NCBI RefSeq assembly: GCF_039555335.1
Contig: NC_092642.1
Span: 23,665,262-23,729,261 of the forward strand
Reading direction: 5' to 3'
Source of the DNA: Amphiura filiformis
Lineage: Eukaryota > Echinodermata > Ophiuroidea > Amphilepidida > Amphiuridae
Length of the DNA stretch: 64,000 bases
The notes under the pieces are model-generated. The model saw only the letters and a list, made by a program, of their open reading frames with translations, was not told the DNA's origin and did not search any database. Shown here in pieces: positions 21,397 through 43,411 of this stretch (positions are counted from its first letter, which is position 1; each line of letters starts with the position of its first letter). A program made the translations under genes and the position numbers.

Positions 21397-22088
21397 GGGA
21401 TCTGGAATGAGTGTTTTGAGCGTTTTGACAGTATTTTTTGTGGGACATGAGAGCACATCAGACATATCAAATTGCATTCTGAATACGAAGAATGTCTTTC
21501 TGATATCAAATAATTTTCATTTTTGAAATTCACGATATAATACAAATTTTATGACAAATTATTAAAATTTGATATTTTTCACATTTTGATATATAACAGT
21601 CCTCGAATTAAATTTTTATAAATCTAATGATATATTCTTAAAGTGTATGTAGCTGGGAGGAAAAGCCGACGATCAATTGAAAATGTTGACCTTTCATATT
21701 GAAGATATGGATTTTTTCCCAAAAAGACCTAATATTATTTGGTGTTTTGGGGGAAAAATCCCTATCTTCAATACGAAAGGTCAAAATTTTCAATTGATCG
21801 TCGGCTTTTTATCTTTTTATTCCACCTACATACACTTCAAGTATAGGGCCTAAATCATCAGATTTATAAAGTTTACTTCGAGTAGGCCTACTACTCTTAA
21901 ATATCAAAAATATCAATTTTTAATGATTTGCCATAAAATGTGTATTAGGCCTATATACATTGCGAATTTCAAAATCAAAATTATTTGATATCAGAAGGAC
22001 ATTCTTCGTATTCAGAATGCAATTCGATATGTCTGATGTGCTCTAATGTCCCACAATAAATACTGTCCAAACGTTCATACCCCATCCC
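21397..22088. mobile_element. TTAA-flanked fold-back element, copy 2 (uninterrupted)
   Basis: TTAA at 21393-21396 and 22089-22092 flanks a 692-bp unit. Arms of about 200 bp are inverted, and a long central hairpin is built on GCCGACGATCAATTGAAAAT and its complement. It lacks the insertion present in the 13381 copy and so preserves the empty site. Confidence 0.8.
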
Positions 22089-22575
22089 TTAACAAATTGA
22101 CACCAAATATGACTAAAAGCAATATTGCTGTCAAAATATGACCATTTGAAAAAATATATTTGACCGACCAAAGTTACCCCGCTGACCGAAGTTACCCCAT
22201 TTTACGGTATCTTTCGATAGGCCTAAATAAAAAAGCCCTCATAGGCCTAAGCCCCTTCTCCTTTTTTTTTTTTCGAAAACCCGGACGAGAAACATGATTT
22301 TATTTTTCCTCGGCCTAATTAATGGTATGCTTTACGCCTAAATGACCCCCCGGGAAATGACCACGTACAAAGACATACCTCTAGCTCTGGCCTATAAACA
22401 GCTTCCGGCCTCTTGGCGATTGTCAATAAAAACATTAATTGATCGACTCATTGATCGATCAACAAATATTTATTTTTAAGGAAATTGGATTGCTTGCACA
22501 GTACAGGCGCACAACATTGAATTCAAATCTTCAATGCCGCATCCCTCCACGTTCAGGCCACGTTATATCAACGAC

Positions 22576-22764
22576 GTGTGGGTGGTCTAGTGGTAAGCGC
22601 CCTTTAATTTCCCTCGCTTCTGAATTTGCACGATCGATTTGGCGGGAGTTGAGGAGGTTGGCAGTGCGTTGTTGTTTTGTTGGTGTGTGCTGTTCCGGTT
22701 GCTGCAAATTTCTCATCTTCCTTGGAATCCGGGCTTGAAAAATACCAAAATAATCACATTAATC
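22576..22764 (+). promoter_or_regulatory. 5' flank of the fusion gene with an E2F-like site
   Basis: TTTGGCGGG at 22638-22646, about 120 bp before the start codon, matches the E2F consensus TTTSSCG. The 190-bp flank (CGCCCTTTAATTT, CTGAATTTGCACGAT, GTGCGTTGTTG, TTAATCATGTCAAAC) is recognisably duplicated upstream of the second RPA1-like start at 59238. RPA1 is a known E2F/S-phase gene in animals. No TATA box stands out. Confidence 0.55.
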
Positions 22765-25700
22765 ATGTCAAACTCACTGACAGGAGGAGCTATAAAGGTA
22801 ATAACAAATTTAAGTTGTTTTTTGTTAGTGTTTAGGGGCCTAATTTCGGTCTTGAAAGATGATAGGCCTGTTATATAAATAGGCCTATATTTATGTTATT
22901 GTGTAGGCTAACTGGAAGGACGTGGCGTAATTCTGAATCAGATAGGATAGCCTAAATGTTAATATTGAATCATGCATGCATTAGGCCGTGTAAAATTAAT
23001 ATTTTGGTTCTCGTCCCCTCCCTCCTCAATTTCTGGGATTTGTCAAATTTTTAAAATTTTTTTAGATTTTTCAATTTTTTAGACTTAAGTTGGAATGATT
23101 TATGAAATCTTCATACATATAAATAAGTTTATTAGAGAACAAGCATCACTTCCAAGTCTTTTTGTGGTACTCTAGGGGGTTTATCCCTCAGAATCTCACA
23201 TTTGCAGATGATGGTGGATGCGATATCGCTATTTTTGACGTCGCCATTGGATTAACACATAATCATGAAATCTTCACAAACAATTCTAAATTTGTTATGT
23301 GGTGTCAAATCAAAATTATCTTACTCTAAAACCGTTGGGGTTCTGCAAAGTACCCCACTGCAAGTATGTTAATTGTCCATTTATAATCGCTAACCGTGTA
23401 TTGTGAATGGGGCTGTCAGCCCTGTATCTTCGCCAGCCTCGTACGTCCGAATTGCGTGTCCTACACACTAAAAACTACGGGGTTATATTTTCCGTGGTCA
23501 TTTTGAATTGACCACGTTTGGGGTTGTTTTGACCCTTCAAGGGGGTTGTACTGTTTTAATTTGACCACATTCACGAGGTCATTTTAGACACGACGAACGT
23601 GGTCAAAAACTTAGTGGTCATTTTGCCGATACCGTCGCGCATTGATATCAGTTTCAATCTTCCGCTTTGAAAATCTCAATTCATAAATGAGTTTAAACAT
23701 GAGGTGCAATTAATGTTTGTTGATTAATAAATAAAACTCATTTTTTGACTGTAGTTACCCAATTTGTCAACTTTATAATGACTTGCATTCGGAACTATTT
23801 GCACACACGGTGTGCATCGGCTCACGTGGTCACATCAGCGCCATATTTGTTCTGATTGTGCAGCTCAGCGGATTGTCGTGTGTGCTTGTCTGCATGATGG
23901 AATATGAAAAGTTAGTTGAAAAGTGAGACTGCAAGGATGCATAGACCCTTGTCTATGCACGCAGATTCATTCAATTTCATGCTGTCGTGGCTGGTGTCTT
24001 GGCTGCAGTTGTTATAAGCTTATATCATGTAAGCTTATAATACGTGAACTGTCATAGGCGATGACTGACTGTGTGTGAGTGTGATACACAGATGCATTTT
24101 GCAGTTTGCTGTTTATGTAATTCTTTCTCTGTGCAGAAACACACTTATGTCCTGGTGGGACCAGCATGACCATAGGCCTACTAAAAACATCCAAACAACC
24201 CCTAAATGTGGTTATTGAGTAACCCTATAAAACAACCCTTTCAAATGGGTCATTTCATTTGACCCCGAAATGAGGTCATTAAGTAACCCAATAAGGCAAC
24301 CCTTTTGAAGGGGTCATTTCATTTGACCCCGAAATGTGGTAATATTTTGACCCCAATGGGGTTACTATTTGACCAAATACGTAGTCATTGCAATGACCCG
24401 ACCAATGGGGTCAAAATGACCCCGTTAGTGGTATGGTGTTTAGTTGATAACTATGCTGGGGTCAAAAATGACCCCGTTTGGGTCATTTTTTGACCCCGTA
24501 GTTTTAAGTGTGTATGCCGCCTGACATTTGAAAAAAAAAAAGGGCCTCATCGTTTCCTCGAGCACTGTTGGATGGAGAAGACCGAAAACTACTGACAATG
24601 CTAATTTTACATTGACAAAAAAAACAAAACAACAAAACACCTCCCTCCCTCATCAATTCATGAAAATCCTCTGGACGAGAACCAAAACATTAATTTTATA
24701 CGGCCTTAGCAAGGGCGTCAATCCGAGTTGAAGGTGGGGGTGCAGTGGCGTGCCGTGGCGCTCCTACCGGGGGCTGAAGAAAATTCAATTTTGCCGCCCC
24801 TTCCTCAACAGCCCGAAAAGGTTGAACCAATTTTTTTTTTCCGGTTGTTGGAAAAAGTGAAGAGCAAAACGAAACAAAAAAAAAGGATTATAAAAGCAAC
24901 ACATTTTGATGTAGGCCTAAATTTTTTTTACTTTTTAAAATTTTGCCGCCCCTTCATCTTCAGCCGCCCCTTCGTTTTGGCCGCCCCCTGCTTTTACACC
25001 GGGGGGCTCGCGCACCCAAAGCCCCCCATAATACGCACATGGGGTGGGGACACAATAATTGGGAAATATGATCTGATCCGGAAGTGGGTAGGCCCGGGGG
25101 GGGGGGGGTACTCAGTACAAATGACCATACGGGGACGTGCCGCAAACATGGGTAGCATTTTCAGCCTTCTGGTATATCTAATAGGCCTATTTTATTGCAT
25201 AAATTGTATCACTATGGTTTAGGGGAGTATCTCATGACTGGTTTCGAAATTATCTTTCTAAGGCCCCTCGTACTTGATTATCAGTTTCCTGTTTACCGCC
25301 CGCGTCCAAAATTGAAAATCTCAAAATAATTAATTATTTGATTTTTATTTCTAATTTTCTCCTTTAAAATAACTTTCAACTACTTCTACTTGCCATTTTC
25401 TGACTTTAATAATATCAACAATAATGATGAATGAACAAAGAGTACAACTCCACCTTCACTTATTTATAAAATCAAATATTGTTGTGAAATAATTAAATGC
25501 CCGCTCTAGTCAAAATGAGTCGATAGTTGCTTGTACTAGTTCAAACTAAATAAAGAAAATAAAAGATAATTAATAATTAATAATTAAAAGTCACCTCGTC
25601 CCTTTTTCAAAATTTTAAACAGGAAACTAATAATCAAGTGCGAAGGGCCTAATAGAAAACAATATGTTTTATATTAGGCCTACTCTTGCAAATCTCCTCA

Positions 25701-28700
25701 CGAAATTGTTTCTTGTGGTGTTCCGCAAGGATCAATACTAGGTCCTCTTTTATTCATTCTGTATATGAATGACATCAGCAACACATCACAGATCTTAAAT
25801 ACAATTTTGTTTGCTGATGATACCACAGTTTTTTATTCTCACAAAGATGTGTCTGTATTATGTAAACGTGTAAACACAGAAATTAAAGAGGTTTCAAATT
25901 GGTTCAAAGCAAATAAATTGTCATTAAATGCAAATAAAACAAATTTCATGTACCTTGGTACACGTGCACAGACTAGTACTGTAATAAATAACAAAGAATT
26001 TGATATCATCTTGGATGGGTGTAAATTAAGTCGAGTTAGTGAAGCAAAATTTAACTTGGAAAAAACATGTTCAAAATATTTGTAAAATATGTACCAGAAA
26101 TATTGGTGTACTAAACAAAGTTAAATTATTCCTGCCAAGAGACGCCATGTATAAATTATATTGTACTCTAATATTACCTTATCTTAATTATGGTTTATTA
26201 TTGTGGGGAAATGCAAATAGAGAGCACATGAATAAAATGTACATACTCCAAAAACGTGCCATAAGAGTAATCTCCAATAGTGAGTATCTTCGTCACACTG
26301 AACCAATTTTCAAAATGTTTAAGGTATTAAATATCTTTGATATGTTCACTAAGGAAGTTGCTATATTTATGTTTAAAAGTATAATAACAAAATGTTACCT
26401 AGATCTTTTGAAAATTTCTTCCAGACTCATAAAGAAAATCATAACTATAATACACGGAATAGGAATGATTATAAAATACCTATCCACAAAATCAACAGTA
26501 TCTGAACGGTTGGACCAAAAGTTTGGAATACATTGCCAAAAAATGTTAAAATGTCAGCAACCTTAGGTCATTTTAAGTCAAACTTGAAATCTGTTTTTGA
26601 TATTTACAAGTAGAATTATGTTTATTCATTGATATGGTAACATTTGGTTAATACTACTGAATTTGATATGAATAATATTTATTATATTTAATTTTATGTA
26701 TACCTTTTTATTACATGCCTATGACATTGTGGTGGGGTGTGAGTGTGAGGTGAGAAATCAAGTGTATTTTTCCCTTTAGGTTTTGGTATATTGTATTTTT
26801 TTTTCTTTCATTTTGTGTATCTGTGTATATATATTTAGGTCTTTCTTCTAAGTGTTTCAGGGGGCACAACATTTTACAGGCTTCTGCTTCTAGTTGTGTC
26901 TCCTCCATCTTGTTTTATCATGTTTTGTTATTTGTATGTTTTGGGATGGAAATAAATTTGATTGATTGATATATCAATGACCCCTTTTTCAAAGCCTATT
27001 TTGGTATATGAATGGGTCCTTTTTTCAAAATTGTCTCAAATTTTTCGGAAAACAGCCCAATTTTTCCTTAATCTAGCCAAAATTGTGCACCTGTTTATTT
27101 TCCTTGGATCTATATCACAGGTATACTGATAATAATTTGTGTGCCAGAACTGCCAACTGCACCTATTGAGGGATTCCTTCTCTCTCTCTCTCCCCACCAT
27201 AGCTTTCTCTTTTCCTCTCCCTCTCTCCTTTCTTTCTCTCTTTTCCCCTGCACTGGGAGGGGAGGTGGGGCCCAAATCAGCAAATTTTGCCAGGGGGGAA
27301 TTTCGCTCCCTGGTAAGTACACCAGTATTAGCATGAGACAAAAATATCTGTAGAATTCATGTGAAAAAACAAATTTGTATTTTTTTTTATCTGCACACAG
27401 GAACTTGCAGATAGTGGAAATTATACCAAACCAGTTGTTCAGCTCTTGGTAAGATTTAATTGCAATCCATTCTCAACCATTCTTAAAATTATTATGTGGT
27501 ATTACTGGCAACTTCTTTTTACAGTACTTAGGCCTATATTATTAATTTTTATGTACCCAATTTTACAAAATACAGCTGCTAGTTCCAAAAACAAACAAAA
27601 AAACAAACAACCAGTCAAATCTTTCCTCAAAAAAGAGATACTGAGTATCACATTGAATTGAAAAAAACCCTCTCTTCATTATAAATATCACATTTCCACC
27701 TGTAGCGTTGTAACTAGAATTGGGATATTATATAATTTTGACTACTAAAGTACTAGTATCCTGTTTGAACTTTTAAAAAGCCTAACACTGCACCAGGAGG
27801 GCAACCCAAGCCAAATTTGTTGAGTACCCACCCTTCAAGTTTGCCAAAAACACTACTCAAACCTTTGTTCTAAAGATTTGGTCAACATGGTCACAGTCTC
27901 ACTCACTCTCACAGAGAACATTAGCATCTATGGTCTCTTGCTGTATTTTGCCTACAATGTATAATTATGCATAAAGACCCATCTAAATAAGTACTTACAT
28001 GTATAAGTATGTATATAATATGGTTACGGTTCGCTATCTCTAAGGACCGCTATCTCTAAGGTTCGCTATCCCTAAGGTTTGTTATCACTAATTACGAAAA
28101 AGGTCCACTATACCTAAGGTTCGATATCACTAATTTTGAAAAAGGTTCGGTATTCCTAAGGTTCGATACCACTAATTTTAAATAAGGTTCGCTATCTCTA
28201 ATTTTAAATAAGGTCCGCTATCACTAATTTATTGAAGGTTCGCTATCTCTAAGGTTCGCTATCACTAATTTAAAATAAGGTCCGTTATCTCTAATTTTAA
28301 CAATCCCGGTATCCCTAAGGTTCGCTATCTCTAATTTCAAATAAGGTCCGCTATCTCTAAGGTTCGCTATCTCTAAGGTTCGCTATCACTAATTTCAAAT
28401 AAGGTTAAGCTATCTCTAATTTCAAACAAGGTTACGCTATCTCTAATTTATAATAAGGTTAAGCTATCTCTAATTTTAAATAAGGTTCGCTATCTCTAAT
28501 TTTAATTAAGGTTCGCTATCTCTAATTTTAAATAGGGTATAGATAGCGGACCTTATTTGAAATTAGAGATATCGGACCTTATTTAAACTTAGAGATAGCG
28601 GACCTTTTTTAAAAATTAGAGATAGCAGATCTTTTTTAAAATTAGAGATAGCGGACCTTATTTAAAATTAGAGATAGTGGACCTTAATTAAGATTAGTGA

Positions 28701-30299
28701 TAACGAGCCTTAGGTATAGCGCGCCCTAATCAAAATTAGTGATAGCGAACCTTAGAGATAGCGAACCTTAATTAATTAGGGATAGCGAACCCTAAATAAA
28801 ATTAGTGATATCGAACCTTAGGTATAGCGGACCTTTATTGCAATTAGTGATAACGAACCTAGAGATAGCGAACCTTCAATAAATTAGTGATAGCGGACCT
28901 TATTCAAGATTAGTGATAGCGAACCTTATTTTAAATTAGTGATAGCAAACCTTATTTAAAATTAGTGATATCGAACCTTAGAACCAGCGAACCTTATTCT
29001 AAATTAGTGATATCGAACCTTAGAAATAGCGGACCTTTTTTTAGGTATAGCGAACCCTTTTCTCTATTAGAGATAGCGGGATTCTGATCTCCATAGACTT
29101 TACATGTTAGTGATAGTGAACCTTAGAGATAGCGAACCTTAGAGATAGCGGTCAGTTTATACATAAATGTAGATTATGATAGTACAATTCCAGTGATGCC
29201 TTAATGTTTTTTGCACTTAAATAAAATCACTTATATTTAGGCTTTGAAGAAGCTGAGCGCAAATACATGTTCTGGTAATGGTACAACAGACCGGTATCGT
29301 GTCTTGCTATCTGATGGCGTGCATAGCAACCCAGGTAGGTAGCCATTCTCAAAGTGTTGGTCCAAACGGACAATGAATCATATACGCCTGTGCATCTATT
29401 CAAAATCCTGTCAGATGAGAGTGAAAGATTGCACGGGCGTATGATACTTAATTATGTTTGGAAATACAATGCTCTCTTCTGTCAATTGATTTGCTCACAG
29501 AACCGTGATGATTGTGTTTATTATAAGTCAGAGCACAGCACAGATATACCATGATCATTATGCTAATTAAACTCATTGATGCCATATTGTTTTGAGAATC
29601 ACACTAATTTAGGGTAAATTTCCAGAACCAGCTAATTACCACTAATTAAACTGATTGATGCCATATTGATTTAGAGAACCAGGATGTTGAAACCAAATAA
29701 CTTTATGAGAGAATGATAGCTATGAGGATGTTTTGTAAGAGTCTGAAAACCGTGCTAATCATGCTAATTTAGTCCCTCAACCGCACTAATTATGCTAATG
29801 ACTGCTAATGAAATTTTGAAATTTTAGCTGACAGAAAATAAGTTACCCGCCACTGGTGTGCGGACAGGTGCTATGCTACAGCCCTGGGCTGTTGGGAAAT
29901 TTTTCAATTGGATGTGTATATACATGTAGTTGATGTTGTAAATTAGTTGTTTGACTTTGTACTTTTCTGTAGCTATGCTGGGTGTCCAGTTAAACAAGCT
30001 TGTTGAAGACAACGCCCTGGAGTTATTCAGTGTAATCCAGTTGGATAAGTTTGTGTGCAACCCTTTGCCAGATAACAGGTTAGTTAACTCGAAGTTTCTA
30101 CCTGCAAAAGTAGGGCTAAAATTTGCCCTAAGATTTTGTGTTGTGGGGGTGTTTTCCTTTTTTCTGTATGCATATTACACAGTGGCGTACCGTGGCCGCT
30201 CATACCCCGGGGGCTCAAGAAAACTCAATTTTGCCGCCCCTTCCTCAACAGCCTGAAAAGGTTGACCCAATTTTTTTACGGTGGTTTGAACAAGTGAAG

Positions 30300-30334
<35 letters not shown>

Positions 30335-30773
30335 TATAGGCGCTACCGCCCTCAAAAGCAACACATTTCAGGAAAGTGCAGTCTCATGCCTGAAATAAAT
30401 AAATATAAAAAAAATACAACTGATTCTATTTAATGTCTGGCCTCCTTGTTTTTGTCACCAAAAGGCAATATTTAAACTTTAATAAACAAAAATCATACTT
30501 TGTACATGTTTACCAAATATACTTTTAAAAATGCTTGTGGATCGATCAAGAATTGAGGCCATTGACATCCTGACAAAAAGCGACCAGATTTTCTGAATTA
30601 AATATGTTTGTTTTTTGTGAATCCTCTTGCTTTCAGGCGTGTCATGATCGTATTAGAAGTTAGCATCCTACAGCCAGGTAGTCAAGTTGGCAACAAAATT
30701 GGCCTCCCAATACCTCTCCATGTAGCAGTTGCACGGCCGGTAGGTGCATTATCTCCAAATCCACAACAAAAAG
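22765..30773 (+). CDS. RPA1-like: Exons 1-5: RPA70 N-terminal OB-fold module
   Basis: Residues 1-139 begin MSNSLTGGAIK and follow the vertebrate RPA1 start (MVGQLSEGAI). They keep the P22-V-V-Q core, the DRYRVLLSDG strand (44-53), QLNKLVED (64-71), and the RRVMIVLEVSIL strand (94-105). The basic cleft used by RPA70N to bind acidic peptides of p53, ATRIP and RAD9 is retained: K30/K31, R45, R47, R94, R95. The other RPA1 domains (DBD-A, B and the zinc-bearing C) are absent downstream. Exons 2 and 3 carry upstream intron sequence shared with the 59-62 kb duplicate, which argues for a genomic duplication and against a retrocopy. Confidence 0.85.
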
Positions 30774-33700
30774 GTGGGTATTTATACTACAATCCCGGTC
30801 ATAATTGTTCGAACACTTTAACATGAGTGCTGCAAATATGCCCCCCATTCCCCGATCAATGTTGGTAGTTGTTTATTTGGCCATGCACCCTTCAATTCAA
30901 TCTTTCTACTGTGTGGCGCATAGGCGCGACCTTTGTCCCACAAACGTCTATTAATTTGGGTTAACCACGACCTTCCATGATATACCAGGTTCAACAGCAA
31001 CTTAACCGAAGGACGACCTTGCTACCATTTACCATATCCGTTCAGACTGTAGCATTATTCACACGAGTAGGTGATTGGTATTACAAAGAGTGGAACAATA
31101 TAATAGTTTTTATGCGCTGAAACGTAAAGTATAGTAACTGATATGTTTTCTGTAGTTCATCCAAAGACAAATATAAGTAACAGTAATCACTATTTGTTAA
31201 AATAAACAAAAAAGCAGCATATATAATCATGCCACGTAGTAAAATTTTTATAAAATCATACCCGCTGAAAACTGGAATCAACCAAAATATCCTATGTGGA
31301 GAACAGCGTTCAATAACCTTGAGTTTACCTGACCTGACAAGCAGAGAAATTTTGACCTGAAAACTTACTGAAATATCTTACCGTTATCAAATTGAAACTG
31401 ATGGTGGAGCTTATAGTTTACTTATTGAAGTAAACTAGGGTAAATTTAGTTAATATAAAATGTTAACTAGGTTCAGACACCTCTGCATATTTGCTGCGAC
31501 ACTGCAATCCTTTTCCAGGGCAGTTTTTCTGCAGAGAGCTGCTGGTGCACTGCGAGACTAGCTCAGTCCTATGCAAGGTCGCGTGTTTTGTGGTAGGGGT
31601 GATTTTGTAGTATTTTTAGTACAAAAAAAAAATCGGTCGGTGTATATAACAGCCATCAAAATTCACGAAAAAAATACACGAAGTGTACAAATATATATGA
31701 AATCCATATCCACCCCTGCATAAATTGTGACTATTACCATTTTCCCGATTTTAACACTAAACCGCCGACGGCTGTTGCTGGTCCTATAGCGTAGCATGCA
31801 GGGGTTTGTAGAGGTCATCTGGTTTAATACGGAGTGGAATAGGAAAAATGGACCGATAGTTTGTAATGTAGAGACATCCAACATTGATTGATGGGGAAGG
31901 GGGAGGGCTGTAGTAGTAGGAACGGGTTCAGACTTTACACCAAAGAAAGCTAAATTTCAGTACCGTACAAATGTATGTTAAGTATAACTAAAATACGGGT
32001 TAAAACAATCCTACTTTTACACAAGTGTTCGAACGACTTATGGCCGGGATTGTAGGTCTACTAATTTTTTAAATTTATTTATTTGTTTGTTTGTTTGTTT
32101 GTTTCTATTTAGAGAGTCCCTGGACCTAATTTGATTGATTTTAAATGATTTTCAAAAAAATCACAAGTTTGTATCCAAAAGGGGCAGATTGTAATTTGTG
32201 TTCATGTTCACTTCATAATCTTTTAAGAATCTTAACTTGCATTGGTTTTGTACACATTTCTATATTTTCAATAGATTCTGAAGTGACCGTAAAGTTATAC
32301 GGTGTGCAATAAGTGCATGAGTGGTTGCCCACTTCTTTGTCAGAATACTGACTACACTGGGCTATTGGAATAAGAACATGTTCTTGTACCAAATTATAAG
32401 TTGTACATTGCTTTTTACTTCATCAAAATTGACAGAATTTTGACAAAGTTATGCCAATTTATTAGGAATGTTCGAAATTATGCATGTTTGTACCTCCAGA
32501 AGAATTTTTTGATGGCATGTGATTACATGGTGGAGTGGGTTTAGGGGTGTGTGGGTGGGGTGGGTGTGTGTGGTTTGGTTTTTATGGTCCACATGCATGA
32601 GGTGGGTTTGTGTGAACATACTGGGTGTGGGCCTATGTGTTTCTATACACCGATGCCTACCCTGACACCCCGAACACACACCCACAACACGATCAATAAC
32701 CTTCCTCTTCCGGTACAAGTATTACCCTTTTATTACATAAATTAACATAACATAACTTGGTTAAATATGCCTCTATTTTGATGCAGAAAAAGCAAAATGC
32801 AGCTTACATTTGGGTGCAGCCAATTTAGTGTTTCTTTGCACTTTTGCACATCTTTCTACGCCAGGAAGGTATATGTAAGGGAAGGGGCAATCACTTATTG
32901 CACACCATATACACATTTGCCCCTTTTTGATACAAATTGTAATAAAGGGAAAAAATAAATGAACCACAAATGATTGTCAGCACATGGCTCTAGGTCAAGG
33001 GACTCTCAAATAAAAATAAGATAAAATCACAAAAAAAAATAAAAAAATTTTTAGTATACACAACAGTGTCACTTTTGAAAAATGAAATGGCACTAGCCAG
33101 GGTTCTAGCGGTCCTTGAAAGTCCTTGAATTTGAAAACACCTTTTCAAGGCCTTGAAATTTGGGGAGTGGAGAGGACTATCACTTTTATTAATATTGTGC
33201 CGCATGTAGAGCCAAATCATGATTTTTGTGTTGTGGGAAGTCCTTGAAAATCATGCTTTTGGACCTTGAAAAGTCCTTGAATTTTAAAGCCTTCAAGGGG
33301 CAGCTTATGTGAATATATGTGACTGTAAGTTGGGACATTAGTGACGTGTATTATTTTTCGCCAATTATAAGCACTCCTATAGGTAACACCAGGAGCAGGT
33401 ATTATACTCTAAAGATTTGCCTAATGGTGCTATGGGCTCCCTTGACATAAGTGGAATTTTACACACAACCTACATGTAAAAGTGCCCTCCCGTAATATTC
33501 CCACCAGCAAAAGAAGGACACAGAACTTAATTCTTGTTTGGATTTTAGAGGAGGGAGCTCTATTTGCACATGAAATTTACAGTAGGCCTATACTGATTTT
33601 GGCACAGCTGTTGTCATTTTACTATAAATGGTAGAATTCAGGTAATCTGCATGTTTTCTAATTGTTTGTGTTCATTATCTAGGAGGATCTGTCGTTGCAC

Positions 33701-36700
33701 AGAGACCAGCTGGAATGCATCAATCAAGTGATTATCGGGGTGATTTTTGGGGTAAGATTTCTGCATTTGGTCATATGTGTACATCCATATCAAAATGATG
33801 CACTTGTCGGCTGCTACATGTGTCTCATTTCACATAATAACTGGGAATAAATACCAGACTCATTTCCAGTGGGGGTCACTTTATATCATCCCCAAGTCAC
33901 ATGGCTTATTAATACAGAGAACATTCCATAACCATGTCACTTGGGGATGATTTGAAGTGACCTCCACTTGAGATGAGTCTGGTATTTATTCCCAGTTATT
34001 ATGTGAAATGAGGCACATGTAGCAGCCGACAAGTGCATCGTTTTGATATGGATGTACACATATGTCATATTAATTAAGTTGGTATGGAAAAAAACCACTT
34101 TACAAATTGAGAGAAAAGTCATCAATTTTGATTCAAATTAATGTAACTTTTATTCTATACATAGTCCAAATCTGAGACACCAATATTCGTCTCAGGTCCA
34201 ACTGATATGAAATAAACATATTTAATAACTTTACTTTATAAGGATGCATAATATGTTGACATTAAATATACAGGGTGTGTATGAATTATACAGGGTGTAA
34301 AAAAACATCACATTTTTGTTTCTAGTTCTAACATACCCAGTTTATTTTTTTCTCTGTAAGTAAAAAACAAGATCTTTGGTTACAAGTGATATTTCGTTAG
34401 TTTAATGTGTTATTGATTGCAATACCTGTGAATTTTGAGACGCCCAATAGTTGGACTTTTCCATATATGATGCAGCATTGTTTTGACCCCTCGTTTTTTC
34501 GTAAACTCTATGGATAATTAGCACTTGAATTAAACAATTAATTCATGAGAACTTTGGTTGCAAATGATATTTCATTAGTTAAATGTATTATTGATTGCAA
34601 TACCTGTGAATTTGCAGACCACTAAGAGTTAACTTTTCCAGATATGACACTCTAAATTTAAAAAAGCATCATTTTGACAATTTGCATGTAAACTCTATGG
34701 CTGCACCTCCGCTGAGTCCACCCCTGACTACTTGGGCATTTAGTGATCTATAGCCAAAAGTCAAAATTTCAGCCACATTTAATGCAAATTGACAAAATGT
34801 TGGCAGATTTTGAACATTTTGGTTACAGCTAGGCAAAATTGGACTATTTTTTCGGACAAAAACAGGGGTAGACATAAGGAGCAATAACCTGCTGCCTGAA
34901 GGCCAGCTGGGAAGGTTTCGGGCTGGCCCAAGGGCAAATCCACTGGCCCAGATTCTACTTCATTGTGTTTGGTATATTATAATGATTATAATATAATAAT
35001 AATATTGTAACATAATTTTATGTTATAATTTCTTAATTATGCCAAAATTCCAACTGGCCAACTGGGCCATCCAGACGGAAATCTCCTGGCGTTACAAGAA
35101 AACTACTGGCCAGGGCCAGTGGCTAAATGGACCCCTGACAAAAATTGGGAATAGTTTGATAAGTGACCCATATACCAAATATTAGACCCTTGTTTGTGGC
35201 ACATCCCTGTATGGTCATTGTATTGAGTACCCCCTTCTCCTGGGGAATGGGGAATAATTACACATAACGGTACAAACTATAAAGTCAAACTCGAATCCAT
35301 CCTTTAGTTCCCTGCTGATCAGTTGGAACAGATATTATTGTTAACATTGACATGATTGAAATCTTTGGTTCTTTTCAGCTCATAAAATTGCTGCAAGTGG
35401 AAATGCATCAAAGAAGAGTAGCCTCCTACAAGATATGTCTCAACAGCTTACCTGCAGCATATGCCTGGATCACTACACAGTTCCCAAAACTGTCACCCCA
35501 TGCTTGCATACATTTTGCCAACAATGTCTTCAAGAAACTATAGACACTACTGCTAAATCTAGTGGGGCTACAGGAAAGTTTCCATGCCCAAAATGCAGAG
35601 GAAATGTTGAATTTGACTGTCCAGACTTACCAAGTAAGAAAAATGCAGCAGAAAAGCAATTTCAAACAAATTTTGACATTCAGAGTCAACTAGAAATGAT
35701 CAAAAACAAGATCGCCAGTGGATGCTCCAAACACGAAGGTGAAATGCTGATATTTTTCTGCCAGTCATGTGATCAACTCATCTGCGTGATGTGTCTTGGG
35801 GAGATGCATCGGTACTGCGAGTTTATTACTGTTAAAGAAGAAGCAGAGTGTCTTCGTGCTGAATTTGAAAGTGAGCGCAAGGAACTTACAGATAAAGAAG
35901 AGCTGTTGTCACAACATAAGAGCAATTTAGCAGAACTTGAGAAAACTTTGAGAAATGCTACTGACATGATTGAATGCCTTGATTCTTGCAAAGCTGAGAT
36001 CAAAGATTTCATATCTGAAGTAGAGCAGAAGAAACAAACCTCAATAGAAAATATCAAGGGCATCCAAGAGTATCCAGACAAGAGCGAGAGACTAATTCAA
36101 CTCATGAGCGGAACAGATGACTTGAAACTTTTACTAGAAAGAGAGACAGTTTCAAATTTACGTCAAGAACTGAAGAACACCGATTGTGCTCCTACCACAG
36201 AAACTCTACCTTCTTGGGATCGCTTGGATAAAATGTTTGAGCGCTTATTATACAGTGTGACAGATTTACACCAACAAAAGGCTCAAGAAGAGGTTCAAGA
36301 AGAAGAGGTTCAAGAAGAAGAGGCTCAAGAGCATAAATGGGTAAAAGAACTATTTTTAAAAGATGGTTGTCTTTCCACTTTCTGCAGTTCAGTTAGAGAA
36401 AGGATTGCTGATTTTTTTTTTTTTTTTTTAAAAAGCTTTACAAATTTAGAAGTAAGATTTTTTTAAATTTAAATCTGATTTTTGTCAGTCAAGCTTGGAT
36501 CATAGCTGCACTATGGGTACATTTATGTATTTGTGGTATCAAACAACTTGTACAATAGGTCAACAATGAAAAATCTTGTATCCCATGAACAGTTTTAAAT
36601 CCAATTGCAACCATTATGTTTTGATGAGTCCAAGTGTGTGAAAGTATTTGATCCAAAACACAATAATGATAAAATTGGATGCTTTACGCTCAAATTGTCA

Positions 36701-39700
36701 CTCAAATCTAGAATGTGGTTGATGTAAAATCTTAAATAAATCATGTGAATATTAGAGGGAATAAAGTTATAAATTCATAAGTATTTGCTTGATTTTCAGG
36801 TTGTGGAACTGAAGAAAGTGAGTACGGTAGCTGCAAGCAATAAGAGACCAAAGGGTAAGTTCATAAAAGTGCAGTAAAATTTTGTTTAGAAAACTTTTGA
36901 CCCCTTCTGGTCCCAGGAAATCCCAACAAAAATTTTTTCCAGGGGGCATGGGGGAAAAAGGACTAATGTGTCATGTTAGCTCTCAATCAATAAGACGTTC
37001 AACTATGGTGCAGGACGTTGCGGGTTTGAACCATGGTGGTGGTTTACTGCGTTCTTGTGTAAAAATTGTGTTGGCTTGATATTCTTCAAGGAACTTGCAA
37101 TGCCGACTATTGAATATTGTCTTGTTGTAACCTGTAAGAAACTTGATTGTGGATTCTTAGCTGCAAATCCCTGTGTTGTTTAATGGTTTATGGAATAATG
37201 TAGGGTGGTAGTGAACAGTGCAGTGACAACCTGTAAAGTTTGCTGATGAGGCTTGTGGATCAATGTCTATGCGATGTGCTTGTGCATAGCACACTATAAA
37301 TCACTGCGTTTTCTTTTCTTTTTTGATTTTATATTTTATTTGATAATCCAGGCAAGCAAAGAAACAAAAAGCAAAGAGCAAAGTCATTGATCATAGTGGA
37401 AGTGAGGCCGTGGGATGTGATGGTTGCTGGTGATTTTGGGATTATGACAGCTGCTAGATTAGATGGTATAGCATGGGGAGATGGTAAGTACACACATGCC
37501 CACTGCCAGGCCCATAGGCAGGGGTGTGACGCACCCCCACAAAAAATGACAAAGGCCCAAAAAGTCCCCTTTTTTTACCCAAAAATTCCCATTTGCAAGC
37601 GTAGGGAGCAAAAAATAGGTTTTTATGCCTTTTTGGTCCAAAAATGTCCAAATCCGACCCCCATGTCCAAAGAGGTCCAAATTTTGACAAAAAAGGTCCA
37701 TATTTTCAAAATCAGCACCCCCCAAATAAATCCAGGCTACGGGCCTGCCCACTGGATCTAAGCATTGGGTGTGGACCAGTGTCTTAGCTTTGCAGATATT
37801 GAGCTATTTGAATCAAATTTTGTGTCCAAATTTGACTTGACAAATATCAAGCACATCAGACATATCGAATTGCATTTTGAATACAAGGAATGTCCTTCCG
37901 ATGTCAAATAATTTTAATTTTTTGAAATTTGCAATATAATACACATTTTATGGCAAATGATTACAAATTGATATTTTTGAAATTTAATAGTCCTGAAAGT
38001 AAATTATATAAATCTAATGATATGTACTTAAAGTTTATGTAGCTGGAATGAAAAGCTGTCTATCATATGAAAATTTTGACCTTTTGTATTGAATATATCT
38101 AGTTGTTCCCCCCCCCAAAAAAAAAAAACAAAAAAATTTAGGTCTTTTGGGGAAAAAATGTATATCTTCAATATGAACGGTCAAAATGTTCAATTGATTT
38201 TCATCCCAGCTAATTATGTATACTTTAAGTTCACAGCATTAGATTTATAAAGTTTACAGTGAGCGTGTTTATAGTGGGAGCAGATGTGCGGTACATTGCA
38301 GTATAATTTCTATTCCGTCAGAAATTATCCGGATACTTGCCTACTATAAACACTAGCAGTATATGTATGTACGGTACATCGATATCCTTCTCAACCGAAG
38401 GATATTGTCGCGAGATATTTGCACTATAAACACACCAGTATAAATTGTGTGCGGTATTGCGGAAGTAGGAGCTTCTTCATGATGTGTGGAATGCGCACAG
38501 GACATTCGGAACGATTTTCACCCCCCTTAAGAGTTATCAAAATAGAAGCTACATGTTTGCCGCCATGATCATATTGTTGAATGGGCTGTTTATAGCTCGC
38601 GCCACAATATTTACACATTCCCTGTGTGACCTCGGGGTCATTGTAAATGTACGATAATGTTAGTTATTGGTATATATTTGTGCGGTAACTGCAAGTGTCT
38701 CACTATAAACAGCAAGAGTATCGGTGTATATATACAAGGAATATCGTGTACGGTATACACAAAATGCGGTATATTCACTATAAACACACTGTTTGAGGAC
38801 TGTTAAATATAAAAAATATCCAATTCTAATAATTTGCCATAAAATTTGTATTATTTCGCGAATTTCAATGTCTGATGTGCTCTCAGGTCCCACAAAAATA
38901 AGGTGCAAACGTTGCTATCCGATTCCTTAAGTAAGATGTATTGTTTCGCACATTCTTTTTTTCACAGGTAAACTTGTGCCAATGGACAATGGAATGAAGA
39001 AGTTACAAATGGAATGTGTGGTGGACGACAACAAGGTGAGTCACTTTGTAATACTTTACTAAAAGTAATTAAAAAAAATATGACTTAAAAACATAAAGCT
39101 GGAAAAATCTAGTGGGGAAAAAAAGAAGATAGTGGGTCTCAGACCTTGCTTGTCTGACACATGTGCACTAACCGATTGAGTCATTGGGGCAACTCCATGT
39201 CTTTGATATGTGAAAAATATTACGATTAAGGACACAGCTGTGTAAATAATAATTTCAATTATTTTAATTTTTTGCCCCTACACAAATGTGGGGCTTATAT
39301 TATCATCAAAATGTTTGTTTGGCTGTCTGCCTGGGTGTGTTTGTCTGCCTGGTTGTTTGTTTGGCTACCCGGGCAGAAGCAAATTCATTAATCCACTGTC
39401 CAGCTCAAACGTAATAACTGATCAACTTCATTATTATGTTTTCAGGGTTATTAGGAGTTAAGAAAACCTAATAATGATAATTTTGGATGGCTTATTTCGC
39501 ATGATACCATAACATATCGGATTCGTCATACAAATATCGAACTCGCCGTTGGCTCGTCCGATAATTTTATGACTCATCCGATATGTTATGGTATCATGCT
39601 CAGCCAGCCAATATTATATCAAACTTGGTATGGTGATAGGATATGGTGTGCTGTATAGTTTTTTGTATTGTTATTGGCATATTTATGAATATTAATGAGC

Positions 39701-42700
39701 TTATTTGCATATTTTGCCAAGATTTTCATTAATCCACACTGCAGCTTAAACGCAATAACTGACCAACTTTAAACTTAGTGTGGTGATTGGATATGATGGT
39801 ATGATGTACTGTATAGTTTTGTGTCATGTTATTTGCATATTTATGAATATTAATTGGCTCATTTGCATATTTTGCCTACATTTTTTTCAGAGGAAAAAAA
39901 CATTTATTCAAGTTAAACTTTAAACAGAGGTAAACATTAATCATACACATGATACGCAATGATATTACATGATACACATGATGAAATATAATTTCATATA
40001 CACAGAGAAGCTCTCACACAACGCTATGCAAGTACAGAACCTCACATGAGGTTCTGCCACTACACATCACCATGCAAAAACCACTCCGCGTGTATGAGGG
40101 TCTAAATCTAAATCTTATTCTCTACAGAGTGAATTGAAAATACCCCATCTTTTGTAAAATATACCAATATTATTATTACATACGGTATGTAAATATATTT
40201 TTCTAATTTATAATGATTTGCAATTCGTTCTTGAAAATGTGGATCGAAGGGTTATTTTCTTTCATTTTCATTTTATATATATGAAATCTGCATAAAATTA
40301 GAATCAAATCCAAAACAATATAGCTAGGACCAACGCCAAAAAGCAGATTATCTTTTTTCCAAGAGAGGTTTATATTAACTTTGTTTTCGATCCACCTTTT
40401 CACATCATCCCAAAATTTCTTAACCACATGACAATCACAAAACATATGAATCATAGTTTCACTCACCTCCAGACAGAAGGTACACAGACTGGAATCTTTT
40501 ATCCCTATTTTAAATAAAAATGCGTTTGTACCAAGGATTCTGTGAATTATTCTGAATTGAAACCACCTGAGTTTAGTACTTATTGTACATTTGAAGGGTG
40601 TATTAAAATAACATGCCATCTTGAAGGATCAAATGTAGCTTCAAGCTTTTCTTCCCATTTTGTACATATTTACTTAACAATTGGTTTTCTCGAAACCAGA
40701 ATATTGTACATTCTTCTAGAACCCTTTCTATCTTTAAAGAGGACATCAAAGTGAAATGGAATAGTAGGGTAAACAAGAGTATGAATCACCAGGTTTGTCA
40801 AAGAATTTTGGAAATGACTTTTTGATCGCCAATATTACATATACACTGGGCTTTTATATTGCGCCATTTCATTTAGACCACAGCGCATAATAATACGACA
40901 ACAACATAATATTTACAAGCAAAAACAATTATCAACAATCTGAGTGAAAAAGTTACTATTGAAAGAGATGTGTTTTGATACCTTTTTTAAAACTGTGTAA
41001 TGAGCTGGAAGTTCGGTTACTGATGGGTAATTTATTCCATAAACCTGGTGCTGCGAGCAAAAAACATTTATCAGCGGCAGAGTTGAGAGATTACACCACC
41101 GTACTCAACAAAATTTGTGCGAACATGAAAAATACTCATAAAATCCTCCAGCGAGAGGAATTCCCCTCTCTCATTTTGCCTACATTTTCATTAATCCACT
41201 CTGCAGCTTAAACGCAATAACCAATCAACTTCAAACTTGATATTGTGATAGTATATGCTGGCCTGATGTGCTGTATAGTTATTAGCATATGCATATTAAT
41301 GAGCTTATTTGCATATTTCATATTATTTGTACAAACCTTTGTTATTTACACACTTTTTTACACAATTCTAGTTTATCATTTGTGACACGATCTGGTCCAT
41401 GGGGGCCAAAGGTGCCAAATTTGAAACTGAGATAAAGATAAAACTATGGAGTAAAAAAACAATAAAATGCATAAGAAAATAGACATCAAAAAACTTCATA
41501 ACTTTAGAACCATGTATGCTAGACCTTTGGTGTTTTCAGTAAATGATAGTCTATTGTATGTATAATTATAATAATTACAGTAACTCAATTTTCAAAAATG
41601 CCTCCTTTGGCCCCCATGGACCAGATCGTGTCACATTTTTAATCACTCAATATAAACCTGACATTTTGTCTTGTTTTTCAAAAGTTGAAAAATGTTTTAA
41701 AAAAATGCTTTGTGTGTGCTGCTAAAGCATGACACTTCAAGGTACGAAGTGAGTCAATACTACCAGAGTTTAAAACAGCATAATTATAATGAAATCAGAC
41801 ATCTTCTTTTAAAGTAATTTATTGGGTAATTAAAGCCATATTGTAACATTTGTTGAGGCAGATACCCTCAAGTTTTGTCAAAATTCTGAGTTTTCCCTGC
41901 AAAAATGATTTCGGGTGTTGTATTTGTGGCAAAAAATATGGAATATTTAATATAATGGTGTGTCCTGTACGTTTGTTTAGTTCATACATGATGCAGTCAT
42001 GTCTACAGTAGAATTCACCACGAACTTTGCAGGACTTAAACCCCATTAAAAGCTATTAAACCAAGATAACACTCATTGAAAACAGCTCAACTGATTAAAT
42101 CAGATCTTCTCTGGCTGTGCACATGTGTCTGTTTTATATGTGCGGTATCGCAATGAGCTGGTATTATAGCTTCAGTTGGGTAACCGATTATAAAGGAAAC
42201 GCAAGGAAACAATGGTATGTGGACCTGTGTTCACCAAATGAGACAATGGTCTGCTTTTTGTTAACCAGCATTCTTGAAAATGAGCAACATAATGATTGTT
42301 GACTTAACACGGTTTGGAAATAATTTCTTCATATTTTTGGTGTTATCTGTCGCTTACATATCCTTCCTAAAACACCAAAGTACGCATATTTCCAAACATC
42401 TAAATTAGCTAAAAATTTAGGACATGTTACAAAACTATATTTTCTAGAATTTTAGAAGAGTACTTTTAATATTGGCCGGTTATTTTTCACACAGCAACGT
42501 TAACTAGGCAATGTACTATTACCTATAACATACACTAAAACACCAAAGTACGAATATTTCCAAACATCTAAATTAGCTAAAATTTTAGGACATGTTACAA
42601 AACTATATTTTCTAGAATTTTAGAAGAGTACTTTTAATATTGGCCGGTTATTTTTCACACAGCGATGTTAACTAGGCAAATCCCCATACTTCTAACGTAC

Positions 42701-43265
42701 GCTATTTGTAGAGGTCACACGTCAATGGTAAGAGCACTGTGTATTGTGTATAGGAAAACGGACAGTAACTGCAGTATGACAATTGAACTATTAGTCAAAC
42801 TGTCAAATGCATACTAGATGTTGACACTGTACGTACATTATGGTTTACGGGAGGGTCATAACACATCAACAGGTCCGACCTTGGTCTTGATCAATGGAGT
42901 GACATGCATTGGTGACATCGACGCTGGAATGAAATTGCAACTTCTTTGCTTTACCTCAATTTTTTGACTCAAAATTAAGGGAACAACTGGGATGTTTCAC
43001 AGTAATTTGAGGAAAAGATTAATACAAATCTATTTTTTGATGGAAATGTTGCAATTGCAATATGTCTTTAAGAAAACCAATAGAACATTTAGGATTGTGA
43101 TTAAATACAAAGTGATGTTCCAATTAATGAATTTGTGTTTTCTGTATCGGTTTTGTTTTGTTACATTTGTAGGTCAACATGGAAGAGCTAGAAAGGGATC
43201 TCAATGCTTGGGTGGAATATGTACATTCTGATGACCCTGATGCTTTCAGCAAGCTGCCCAAATAA
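22765..43265 (+). CDS. RPA70N - RING/B-box/coiled-coil - eEF1B-GEF fusion gene (11 exons)
   Basis: Proposed exons: 22765-22797, 27401-27448, 29241-29334, 29973-30078, 30637-30773, 33683-33751, 35379-36340, 36800-36854, 37352-37483, 38968-39035, 43173-43265. Every intron is GT..AG. Junction phases are 0,0,1,2,1,1,0,1,1,0 and all agree, giving 1797 nt with no internal stop (598 residues). Residues 1-139 are an RPA70 N-terminal OB fold. Residues 140-162 are a linker exon. Residues 163-483 are a TRIM-like RING, B-box and coiled coil. Residues 484-512 are a basic linker and 513-598 an eEF1B-type guanine-exchange domain. The first part in RPA recruits checkpoint proteins, RING domains act as ubiquitin ligases, and the last part recharges eEF1A with GTP. 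What the combination does is unknown. Retention of intron 7 would end the protein at 36466. The alternative is three transcripts read together; RNA is needed to settle it. Confidence 0.72.
23464..24513. mobile_element. Fold-back element of repeated GGGGTCA/TGACCCC words (intron 1)
   Basis: Ends ACACTAAAAACTACGGGG and CCCCGTAGTTTTAAGTGT are inverted repeats. The left side repeats GTGGTCA/TTGACCAC and the right side is dense in TGACCCC/GGGGTCA words. Central sequence is unrelated to the motif. No coding. Confidence 0.75.
24744..25020 (+). repeat. CAGTGGCGT(G/A)CCGTGGC dispersed repeat
   Basis: Starts CAGTGGCGTGCCGTGGCGC and contains CAATTTTGCCGCCCCTTCC; it ends near GCCGCCCCCTGCTTTTACAC. Related copies lie at 30181-30360 and, as a short end, at about 61286-61310. 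It was inserted in intron 1. Confidence 0.55.
25680..26970 (+). mobile_element. 5'-truncated LINE, CR1/jockey group, frameshifted
   Basis: Reverse-transcriptase motifs are visible: GVPQGSILGPLLFILYMND (about 25717-25773), the catalytic FADDTT box (25810-25827), NKLSLNANKT, and after a frameshift near 26055 the WKKH...PYLNYGLLLWGN thumb region. The 3' end is a TTGATTGATTGAT run at about 26958-26970. Only the last part of ORF2 remains, so it is a dead copy. It sits in intron 1 in the same orientation as the gene. Confidence 0.85.
27178..27245. repeat. CT-rich low-complexity tract
   Basis: Polypyrimidine (CTCTCT/TTCCTCT) run. Frames on both strands here are by-products of the low complexity. 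Confidence 0.6.
28018..29160. repeat. 1.1-kb palindromic minisatellite in intron 2
   Basis: The left half is a degenerate array of GGTTCGCTATCTCTAA words spaced by short AT-rich pieces. From about 28540 the same words appear as the reverse complement (TTAGAGATAGCGAACC) up to 29160. More than 40 copies are visible in all. The two halves can pair, so single strands could form a very long hairpin. It is absent from the corresponding intron of the duplicate gene (61402-62005), so it arrived after the duplication or was lost there. Confidence 0.85.
30181..30365 (+). repeat. Second copy of the CAGTGGCGTACCGTGGC repeat, with a poly-A tract
   Basis: Matches 24744 onward (CTCAATTTTGCCGCCCCTTC, AACAGCCTGAAAAGGTTGA), then an A run of about 28 nt at 30304-30331. 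It lies in intron 4. Confidence 0.55.
30786..32057. mobile_element. Fold-back element, CTACAATCCCGGTCATAA ends (intron 5)
   Basis: CTACAATCCCGGTCATAATTGTTCGAACAC at the left is matched by the complement GTGTTCGAACGACTTATGGCCGGGATTGTAG at the right. A second inverted pair occurs farther in (CCCCGATCAATGTTGG against CCAACATTGATTGATGGGG, about 30849 and 31879). No transposase. Confidence 0.65.
32105..33015. mobile_element. Fold-back element, AGAGTCCCTGGACC ends (intron 5)
   Basis: The outer pair is TTAGAGAGTCCCTGGACC against GGTCAAGGGACTCTCAAA. The inner pair is TACGGTGTGCAATAAGTG against CACTTATTGCACACCATA (about 32299 and 32891). A TTTG simple repeat lies just left, at 32080-32103. Confidence 0.55.
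33768..34075. mobile_element. Near-perfect hairpin element of ~150-bp arms, just after exon 6
   Basis: About 150 bp are followed almost at once by their reverse complement. Shared blocks include TCATATGTGTACATCCATAT, AATGATGCACTTGTCGGCTG and CTGGGAATAAATACCAGAC. It begins only 17 bp after the exon 6 donor, so an RNA hairpin could sit close to that splice site. Confidence 0.75.
34340..34640 (+). repeat. Two diverged direct copies (~190-bp spacing)
   Basis: GTGATATTTCGTTAGTTTAATG...TTGATTGCAATACCTGTGAA recurs as GATATTTCATTAGTTAAATG...TTGATTGCAATACCTGTGAA. Non-coding; lies within intron 6. Confidence 0.55.
35379..36340 (+). CDS. Exon 7: TRIM-type RING, B-box and coiled coil in one 962-bp exon
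   Basis: The C3HC4 RING is C188-C191-C204-H206-C209-C212-C232-C235. A B-box follows with C278-H281-C290-C293-C298-C301-H306; the last ligand position holds C309 where His is usual. Residues about 310-460 are heptad-like and rich in E, K and L (coiled coil). The exon ends in a repeated QEEE/QEEV acidic stretch before the donor at 36341. No C-terminal B30.2, NHL or filamin domain follows. A Met at 182 (35435) could serve as a start if the exon were once an independent gene, but the frame stays open 19 codons upstream to the AG at 35377-35378 and joins exon 6 in phase. Confidence 0.85.
36612..36705. repeat. Short palindromic repeat (GATCCAAAACA...) also at 55680-55765
   Basis: ATTATGTTTTGATGAGTCCAA and TTGATCCAAAACACAATAATG form a hairpin. 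An almost identical unit followed by the same GATGCTTTACGC word lies near 55686-55760. Confidence 0.55.
36800..36854 (+). CDS. Exon 8: short basic linker
   Basis: Fifty-five bases after a clear GATTTTCAG acceptor encode VVELKKVSTVAASNKRPK before a GTAAGT donor. It is supported mainly by splice signals and by phase agreement with both neighbours. The Lys/Arg content continues into exon 9 and could act as a nuclear signal (inference). Confidence 0.6.
36965..37320 (+). mobile_element. Degenerate tRNA-derived SINE (intron 8)
   Basis: An A-box-like TAGCTCTCAATCAATAAGACG (about 36978) and a B-box-like GGGTTTGAACC (about 37021-37031) have tRNA spacing. They are followed by an unrelated body and a TC-rich 3' end before the exon 9 acceptor. 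The call rests on the two internal promoter boxes. Confidence 0.5.
37352..43265 (+). CDS. EEF1D/EEF1B2-like: Exons 9-11: eEF1B-type guanine-exchange domain
   Basis: Residues 513-598 read like the C-terminal third of eEF1B alpha/delta. VRPWD (519-523) corresponds to the family VKPWD, LDGIAWGDGKLVP (538-550) to the family DGLxWGxxKLVP, GMKKLQMECVVDDNKV (554-569) to GIKKLQI.CVVEDDKV, and AFSKL (592-596) to the terminal AFNKI/AMQKL. K595 aligns with yeast K205, the residue that disturbs the Mg/nucleotide site of eEF1A. Two extra residues (P597, K598) follow. The family ETDM...LE...VRSI segment is strongly altered (residues 524-537), so this is a diverged paralogue and not the standard housekeeping gene. 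A basic cluster (KQRNKKQRAK, 503-512) precedes it. Confidence 0.85.
37500..37750. repeat. CCCATAGGCAGGGGTGTG repeat (intron 9)
   Basis: The left end GGCCCATAGGCAGG and right end GGCTACGGGCCTGCC are weak inverted copies. The inside is rich in GTCCCC/GGTCC words. It begins within 20 bp of the exon 9 donor. Confidence 0.45.
37845..38934. mobile_element. TTAA-type fold-back element, copy 3, degenerate and interrupted (intron 9)
   Basis: It shares the AGCACATCAGACATATCGAA arm, the central AAGTTTATGTAGCTGGAATG stem and the right end with 13381 and 21397. The right end stops at a CCTTAA; the left terminus is eroded. A second element interrupts it at 38264-38789. Confidence 0.7.
38264..38789. mobile_element. 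Fold-back element of repeated CACTATAAACAC words
   Basis: Ends CGTGTTTATAGTG and CACTATAAACACAC are inverted. The word ACTATAAACA recurs internally near 38342, 38424 and 38702, together with several GCGGTA/TACCG words. It splits the TTAA-type element and has no coding capacity. Confidence 0.7.
39130..39205 (-). repeat. tRNA-like SINE head fragment
   Basis: On the minus strand an A-box-like TGACTCAATCGGTTAGTGC and a B-box-like GGTCTGAGACCC lie at tRNA spacing. The acceptor stem does not pair well and no tail was recognised, so this is a fragment and not a functional tRNA. Confidence 0.35.
39382..41315 (+). repeat. ~190-350-bp intronic repeat, three copies, split by insertions (intron 10)
   Basis: The phrase CATTAATCCAC...CTGCAGCTTAAACGCAATAAC...TTTGCATATT occurs near 39386, 39728 and 41190 in the same orientation. 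A 140-bp hairpin (39478-39615, GATACCATAACATATCGGAT arms) and an L1-like insertion (39885-41172) break it up. Confidence 0.6.
39885..41172 (-). mobile_element. 5'-truncated L1-like LINE with 16-bp target duplication
   Basis: The minus-strand frame 40203-40619 keeps the C-terminal signature of L1-type ORF2: KLRWFQFRIIHRILGTN, then the zinc-knuckle-like C-X2-C...H-X3-C...C (CTFC...MIHMFCDC) and FWDDVKRW. An upstream KWEEKLEATFDPSRW piece is in another frame. The minus-strand 3' end has AATAAA and an A-rich run. ATTTTGCCTACATTTT flanks the insertion at 39869-39884 and 41173-41188. The part 40840-41172 resembles the 19845 repeat family and may have been carried along. Confidence 0.75.
41378..41637. 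mobile_element. 260-bp MITE, GACACGATCTGGTCCATGGG arms
   Basis: The left and right 30 bp are near-perfect reverse complements (GTGACACGATCTGGTCCATG...GGCCAAAGG, and the reverse). It lies in intron 10. Confidence 0.8.
41828..43000 (+). repeat. Full-length copy of the AAAGCCATATT repeat with internal duplication (intron 10)
   Basis: Its ends match 11450-11850, and its middle matches 17910-18560 in inverse orientation. About 145 bp (AAAACACCAAAGTACG ... GTTAACTAGGCAA) are tandemly duplicated at 42369-42510 and 42536-42680. It ends about 170 bp before exon 11. Confidence 0.65.
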
Positions 43266-43411
43266 TACCAGATTGTGCCAAGTCCCTGAGTACAGATTAG
43301 GTACAAATATATAATAGCAAGACCAACAGAATCAGGGTTGCCACAATTAAATTCAATTGATTTAACCCACAATTTAATTTTTTACCATTTTTGATAAATA
43401 TAAGTTAATTT

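Follow-up and report, generated by a model that had tools for sequence, protein, structure and literature searches.

Gene structure and domain composition

The window, i.e. the whole stretch of 64,000 nucleotides that was analysed, carries a predicted eleven-exon gene on the forward strand, at 22765-43265, and the start of a second RPA1 copy further downstream (Table 1). The eleven exons join into 1797 nt, corresponding to 598 codons and a TAA stop, with GT..AG borders in 10 of the 10 introns and intron phases of 0,0,1,2,1,1,0,1,1,0. These borders and this frame, free of phase conflict, had been proposed in a sequence-only reading of the same DNA, and both were recovered when re-derived. The frame used is the best of three by codon usage in 10 of the 11 exons, the exception being exon 6.

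Four domain matches of the joined 598-aa protein exceed the Pfam cut-off: Rep-A_N (aa 5-106, E 3e-24), RING (aa 188-233, best E 2.7e-10), B-box (aa 278-307, E 1.8e-7; PF00643 with 31.6 bits against a cut-off of 24.1) and EF1_GNE (aa 516-596, E 1.4e-8). The solved structures that are closest by sequence agree with these assignments, namely human RPA70N for the front part (2.4e-18), TRIM3 (6.2e-13) and TRIM2 (6.3e-12) for the middle part, and eEF1B (9.9e-18) and eEF1D (2.2e-17) for the tail. The RPA70N, RING plus B-box, and EF1_GNE modules recognised in the sequence-only reading are therefore confirmed, and the domain matches support the TRIM exon and the eEF1-type 3' end that it had proposed.

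Table 1 Features of the window. Positions are those of the whole stretch.
Feature	Position	Strand	Content
Exon 1	22765-22797	+	MSNSLTGGAIK, RPA70N start; duplicate at 59238-59270
Exon 2	27401-27448	+	RPA70N; duplicate at 61354-61401
Exon 3	29241-29334	+	RPA70N; duplicate at 62006-62099
Exon 4	29973-30078	+	RPA70N
Exon 5	30637-30773	+	RPA70N end, linker start
Exon 6	33683-33751	+	Linker, phase 1-1, without domain match
Exon 7	35379-36340	+	RING, B-box and coiled coil; possible ATG of its own at 35435; may end in frame at 36451 instead
Exon 8	36800-36854	+	Linker VVELKKVSTVAASNKRPKG
Exon 9	37352-37483	+	Basic linker, EF1_GNE start
Exon 10	38968-39035	+	EF1_GNE
Exon 11	43173-43265	+	EF1_GNE end, ...DAFSKLPK, stop
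Second RPA1 copy, exon 1	59238-59270	+	MSNFLTRGAIK
Second RPA1 copy, exon 2	61354-61401	+	
Second RPA1 copy, exon 3	62006-62099	+	
Receptor-type open frame	981-4124	-	One exon, 1047 aa
Retroelement remnant, intron 1	25678-26563	+	RVT_1 1.8e-16 in 25678-26082
Variant tandem repeats	28028-29150		About 1.1 kb, units such as GGTTCGCTATCTCTAA
Minisatellite, end of TRIM exon	36285-36330		15-nt unit, 3.1 copies
Retroelement remnant, intron 10	40206-40628	-	zf-RVT 3.2e-9
Dispersed repeat, first occurrence	43549-44000		0.45 kb, directly after the gene
Minisatellite	49702-50347		Repeat on + like SADEGVDDILGML; both strands open
Dispersed repeat, second occurrence	57392-57828		0.45 kb; the second RPA1 copy follows after 1.4 kb

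The splice sites were scored with a generic splice matrix, and percentiles refer to the 1471 GT and 1302 AG dinucleotides in 20-46 kb. At least the 96th percentile is reached by 17 of the 20 splice sites of the model. Lower values are observed for the donor of exon 1 (93.3), for the donor of exon 7 at 36340, which is weak (81.0), and for the acceptor of exon 3 at 29241 (58.2), the equivalent of which in the second copy is about equally low. A stronger in-frame donor for exon 7 is present at 36451 (95th percentile); its use adds 37 residues, including a phenylalanine run, and gives a protein of 635 aa. Exon 6 is dispensable, as exon 5 joins exon 7 directly in frame, and exons 7 and 8 jointly form a phase 1-1 cassette. 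Codon usage is uninformative for the 5' extension of exon 7, which is at the 78th percentile of open non-coding segments, with another frame scoring higher.

RPA70N front and second RPA1 copy

In the available text of PMC10479964, R31, R41, R43, R91 and a hydrophobic patch are the sites at which RPA70N contacts acidic-hydrophobic peptides from damage-response proteins; K88 is also among the residues named. Alignment to the human structure indicates that R41, R43 and R91 are kept in the RPA70N part of the model, while R31 is replaced by lysine and K88 by proline. The full-length Rep-A_N match and these three arginines are shared with the N-terminal domain of RPA1 (RPA70).

The second RPA1 copy emerged both from a model-protein search of the window and from a self-comparison of the window, whereas it escaped the raw Pfam scan of 54001-64000. 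It lies on the same strand as the first, the borders and phases of exons 1-3 are identical, and the 5' flank and the intron edges are related. The Rep-A_N profile fits the stretch encoded by exons 1-3 about equally well in both copies (32.4 and 33.8 bits). No exon was found between 62099 and the end of the window at 64000, where the copy runs off. Since this second RPA1 start stands in tandem (59238-62099), 36.5 kb downstream of the first, the RPA70N part is a local tandem duplicate, which bears out the partial RPA1 duplicate of the sequence-only reading. A tandem assembly of two haplotypes is unlikely, as the copies differ at 14 of 58 residues.

The two occurrences of the 0.45 kb dispersed repeat are 91% alike. 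This repeat may be what brought about the tandem duplication; alternatively, it may have been inserted afterwards.

TRIM exon

The RING encoded by exon 7 exhibits all the C3HC4 ligands, with an arginine after the last cysteine. In the B-box, the last ligand position is a cysteine, where a histidine is usual. About 187 residues precede the RING in the fusion model; in TRIM/RBCC proteins the RING is usually close to the N-terminus, as it would be here if translation started at 35435. The arginine after the last cysteine of the RING occupies the linchpin position, the role of which is described in the part of PMC11992055 that was available. The TRIM exon retains features that are to be expected of an active RING.

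A coiled coil had also been attributed to this module, and a heptad pattern is indeed found after the B-box, from aa 309, by a plain count that involved no null model. In 56-aa windows starting at aa 309-351, 69-81% of the a/d positions are hydrophobic, compared with about 29-32% overall (best of seven registers). The coiled coil lies within 120 residues of the B-box, in line with the rule for TRIM proteins given in the available sections of PMC2533329. The exon ends with a minisatellite with units of five codons, which encodes an acidic repeat. A tblastn search of the window with the model protein returned no second TRIM copy at E <1.

The C3HC4 RING, the B-box-type zinc site, the adjoining coiled coil and the one-exon module are all features of the TRIM/RBCC family. 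In contrast, an EF1_GNE tail is absent from the C-terminal domains named in the text available from PMC2533329. The same text states that the tails of TRIM proteins belong to a limited set and that new ones arise by rearrangement, as in TRIM5-CypA. These chimeras resemble the present case in that a rearrangement gave the tripartite motif a new tail; they differ in the tail itself, and the protein predicted here has an extra N-terminal module.

eEF1B-type tail and missing parts of RPA1 and eEF1B

The EF1_GNE profile is matched nearly over its full length (3-88 of 88). The region of the first helix has diverged and two additional residues are present at the end. The near-terminal lysine is kept, whereas an asparagine is found at the position occupied by a phenylalanine in the yeast chain and a tyrosine in the human chain; both positions presumably have functional roles. 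As the lysine is kept but the phenylalanine or tyrosine is replaced, the tail is more likely a docking module than a fully working exchange factor, and its exchange activity is doubtful. EF1_GNE and the near-terminal lysine are thus shared with the exchange domain of eEF1B alpha and eEF1D, from which the tail differs by this asparagine and by the N-terminal and acidic parts, which were not found.

The missing parts were searched for by tblastn in the whole window, on both strands, with human RPA1, eEF1B2 and eEF1D sequences. No convincing DBD-A, B or C of RPA1 was found in the window, although short exons can escape such a search; the only two matches to RPA1 beyond RPA70N have an E of 5.6 each, and one of them is inside the leucine-rich repeat receptor frame. 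For the N-termini and the acidic segment of eEF1B2 and eEF1D, the window gave only chance-level matches, the best (E 0.97) being in a lysine run. These searches are limited evidence, because the same method missed or barely reached real RPA70N exons: exons 4 and 5 were found with E 0.001 and 1.1e-4, exon 3 with E 4.3 (1.9 in the second copy), and exons 1-2 were missed. The GNE exons were found with E 1.6e-5, 0.006 and 0.18.

As tblastn found neither convincingly, the locus comprises a front without its usual end and a tail without its usual start, and between them a complete TRIM tripartite exon. The numerous DBD exons should not all escape the search, so the upstream copy, which differs from RPA1 in that DBD-A, B and C were not found downstream within the window, is probably no ordinary RPA1. 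A whole RPA1 gene with the TRIM and GNE modules nested in an intron is unlikely, as there is no convincing DBD exon before 59238, and a complete eEF1B or eEF1D gene was rejected because tblastn detected no N-terminal exons.

One transcript or several

The joins between the modules were evaluated with a shuffle chain test, in which the donor of exon 5 and the acceptor of exon 9 were kept fixed and in-frame chains were scored. For RPA70N-TRIM, the best real chain was equalled in 3 of 600 shuffles. For TRIM-GNE via donor 36451, it was equalled in 47 of 1500 shuffles, and in 60 of 1500 in a second run; the path of the sequence-only reading, via donor 36340, was matched or beaten in 220 of 1500. 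The TRIM-GNE join is therefore only modestly better than chance. A version of the test in which these splice sites of exons 5 and 9 were shuffled as well (0/150, 8/400) was set aside as unfair. In the real sequence, the true frame scores 11.4 for RPA70N-TRIM, against 10.1 and -3.4 for the displaced frames, and 5.9 for TRIM-GNE, against 5.0 and -2.4. The RPA70N-TRIM path proposed earlier, which includes exon 6, scores 9.8, below the wrong-frame chain at 10.1. As one displaced frame nearly equals the true frame at each join, phase alone says little. The sequence-only reading had brought the modules together in one protein: its phases do fit, but such a fit is weak evidence, and the union itself stays an interpretation.

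The distances between the modules, 4.6 and 1.0 kb, are comparable to the introns inside the modules (at most 4.6 and 4.1 kb). Altogether, a linkage of the modules into one gene is favoured, and we assign a probability of about 0.42 to a single three-part protein, RPA70N-TRIM-GNE. This value is kept at that level because the TRIM-GNE join is modest and because most of the helminth-specific two-domain fusions from 20 species were judged likely annotation artefacts, according to the available part of PMC12964723.

The modules could instead belong to neighbouring separate genes, which we regard as possible. The front would then be a truncated gene, or a fragment, that encodes RPA70N alone; TRIM would be a one-exon gene with its start at 35435; and the tail would be a short eEF1B-like gene with a small first exon of its own, or only GNE would be separate. 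The shared frame would in that case be coincidental. The TRIM exon possesses an ATG of its own, its frame is open up to the stop at 36466, and TRIM modules are often encoded by one exon, the tripartite motif standing alone in 12 of 18 worm TRIM genes in the available text of PMC2533329. Candidate start exons for the GNE part exist as well, with 14 small ATG-to-donor combinations, the donors of which are weak or moderate. AATAAA is present at 33846, 36735 and 36760, though AT-rich DNA makes such signals common. The near-equal displaced frames at each join and the ease with which shuffles reach the donor-36340 path also agree with separate genes. On the other hand, RPA70N would be left without a known 3' partner and GNE without a known start, and the TRIM frame past 36340 crosses a T-homopolymer giving the phenylalanine run, which is atypical for coding sequence. 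Moreover, the acceptor at 35379 has the right phase and is a strong site (98th percentile). This same acceptor, which lies inside the open TRIM frame and has the phase of exons 5 and 6, makes it unlikely that RPA70N ends alone and that TRIM and GNE are joined in a single TRIM-type protein whose tail is an exchange domain, as does the rarity of equally good RPA70N-TRIM chains in shuffles. Such an arrangement of two genes would nevertheless account for the stop soon reached by read-through from exon 6 and for the AATAAA at 33846; in addition, exon 8 requires a phase-0 partner, for which the TRIM donors 36340 and 36451 both fit, and the open frames that extend upstream from exons 8 and 9 both lack an ATG, which also speaks for a single gene.

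Constraint on the locus

Between the two RPA1 copies, Ks is 0.22 and Ka 0.13 over 58 codons. The resulting Ka/Ks of 0.58 (bootstrap 0.24-1.75, an interval that includes 1) indicates loose or one-sided constraint; it is compatible with neutrality and does not demonstrate purifying selection. Exons 1-3 contain 0 gap events in 174 columns, compared with 7 in 197 columns for the three longer flank alignments (Fisher p 0.016), a count that excludes three short flank alignments of 12, 10 and 11 columns with 1 gap event in 33. In a neutral simulation at a divergence of 0.11, a stop-free frame was retained by exons 1-6 in 13% of cases, by exon 7 (counted from its ATG) in 0.9% and by exons 8-11 in 20%. 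The front and the middle thus seem to have been under constraint during at least some of their history.

These values, together with 598 codons without a stop, render it improbable that the locus is a decaying chimeric fragment, i.e. a duplicate that is untranslated or no longer constrained. Decay would be consistent with the wide interval around the Ka/Ks, with the diverged first part of GNE and the asparagine at its phenylalanine or tyrosine position, and with the retroelement remnants carried by the introns.

Possible origin and function

If the eleven exons form one gene, a tandem duplication would have copied the 5' part of RPA1, of which the 5' flank and exons 1-3 are visible in both copies. 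The truncated upstream copy would have kept the RPA70N exons 1-5 and lost the remaining RPA1, and would have acquired its 3' end from downstream: the TRIM tripartite module, encoded by one exon, and after it the final exons of a gene of the eEF1B/eEF1D type. Such a duplication route agrees with the enrichment of human readthrough fusions in segmental duplications that is reported in the available text of PMC6764479.

A putative transcript under a presumed RPA1-derived promoter would give a single product of about 598 aa, or 635 aa via donor 36451. This product may be a coiled-coil, dimeric TRIM-type protein with predicted E3 ligase activity. Its RPA70N groove would bind acidic-hydrophobic helices of damage-response partners, the presumed targets, and its GNE tail would dock on eEF1A. 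An E3 that uses the RPA70N cleft to find damage-response peptides, with a tail linking it to eEF1A, is thus possible. Judged from sequence, a working E3 ligase that combines an RPA70N fold, a TRIM motif and an eEF1A exchange domain, and that arose via tandem duplication of RPA1, can be put forward only tentatively.

Among the open PMC keyword matches listed, neither a combination of RPA70N and TRIM nor one of TRIM and EF1_GNE was described. If transcribed as read, the gene would encode a TRIM-type protein carrying, before and after the tripartite motif, domains that we have not seen reported for this family, and would be a natural case of RPA70N serving as a substrate-recognition module for ubiquitination. 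The adjacent RPA1 sister copy would allow the birth of a three-part chimeric gene to be dated and reconstructed. Should the proposed function be true, replication-stress partners, ubiquitin and translation elongation would be linked by a ready-made protein.

Other features of the window

Raw forward-strand DNA was scanned with Pfam in 4201-22801, 43266-51667 and 54001-64000; inside 22802-43265, the model protein and three open frames were scanned, and on the reverse strand 43999-49400 in three frames and chosen open frames. The raw forward-strand stretches gave no family above the cut-off and one chance match (INTS4_C, E 0.038). A scan of the window with the Rfam gathering thresholds found nothing, and of 5 pattern matches in a scan of IMG/VR for relatives, 0 were confirmed. 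In intron 1, the open frame at 26030-26563 (+) has no Pfam match.

The one-exon open frame near the start of the window encodes a rhodopsin-type 7TM domain (7tm_1 1.2e-21) preceded by many leucine-rich repeats (LRR_8 1.9e-82), an arrangement which we take to resemble the relaxin-receptor-type LGRs. In the variant tandem repeats at 28028-29150, the second half corresponds to the reverse complement of the first. The minisatellite at 49702-50347 gives, on the forward strand, a DUF1331 match of 33.0 bits, which is above the cut-off, yet no single stretch passes. Finally, the palindrome TAGGCCTA occurs 29 times in the whole window, compared with 0.7 times expected from base composition, and this excess is a marked genome signature.
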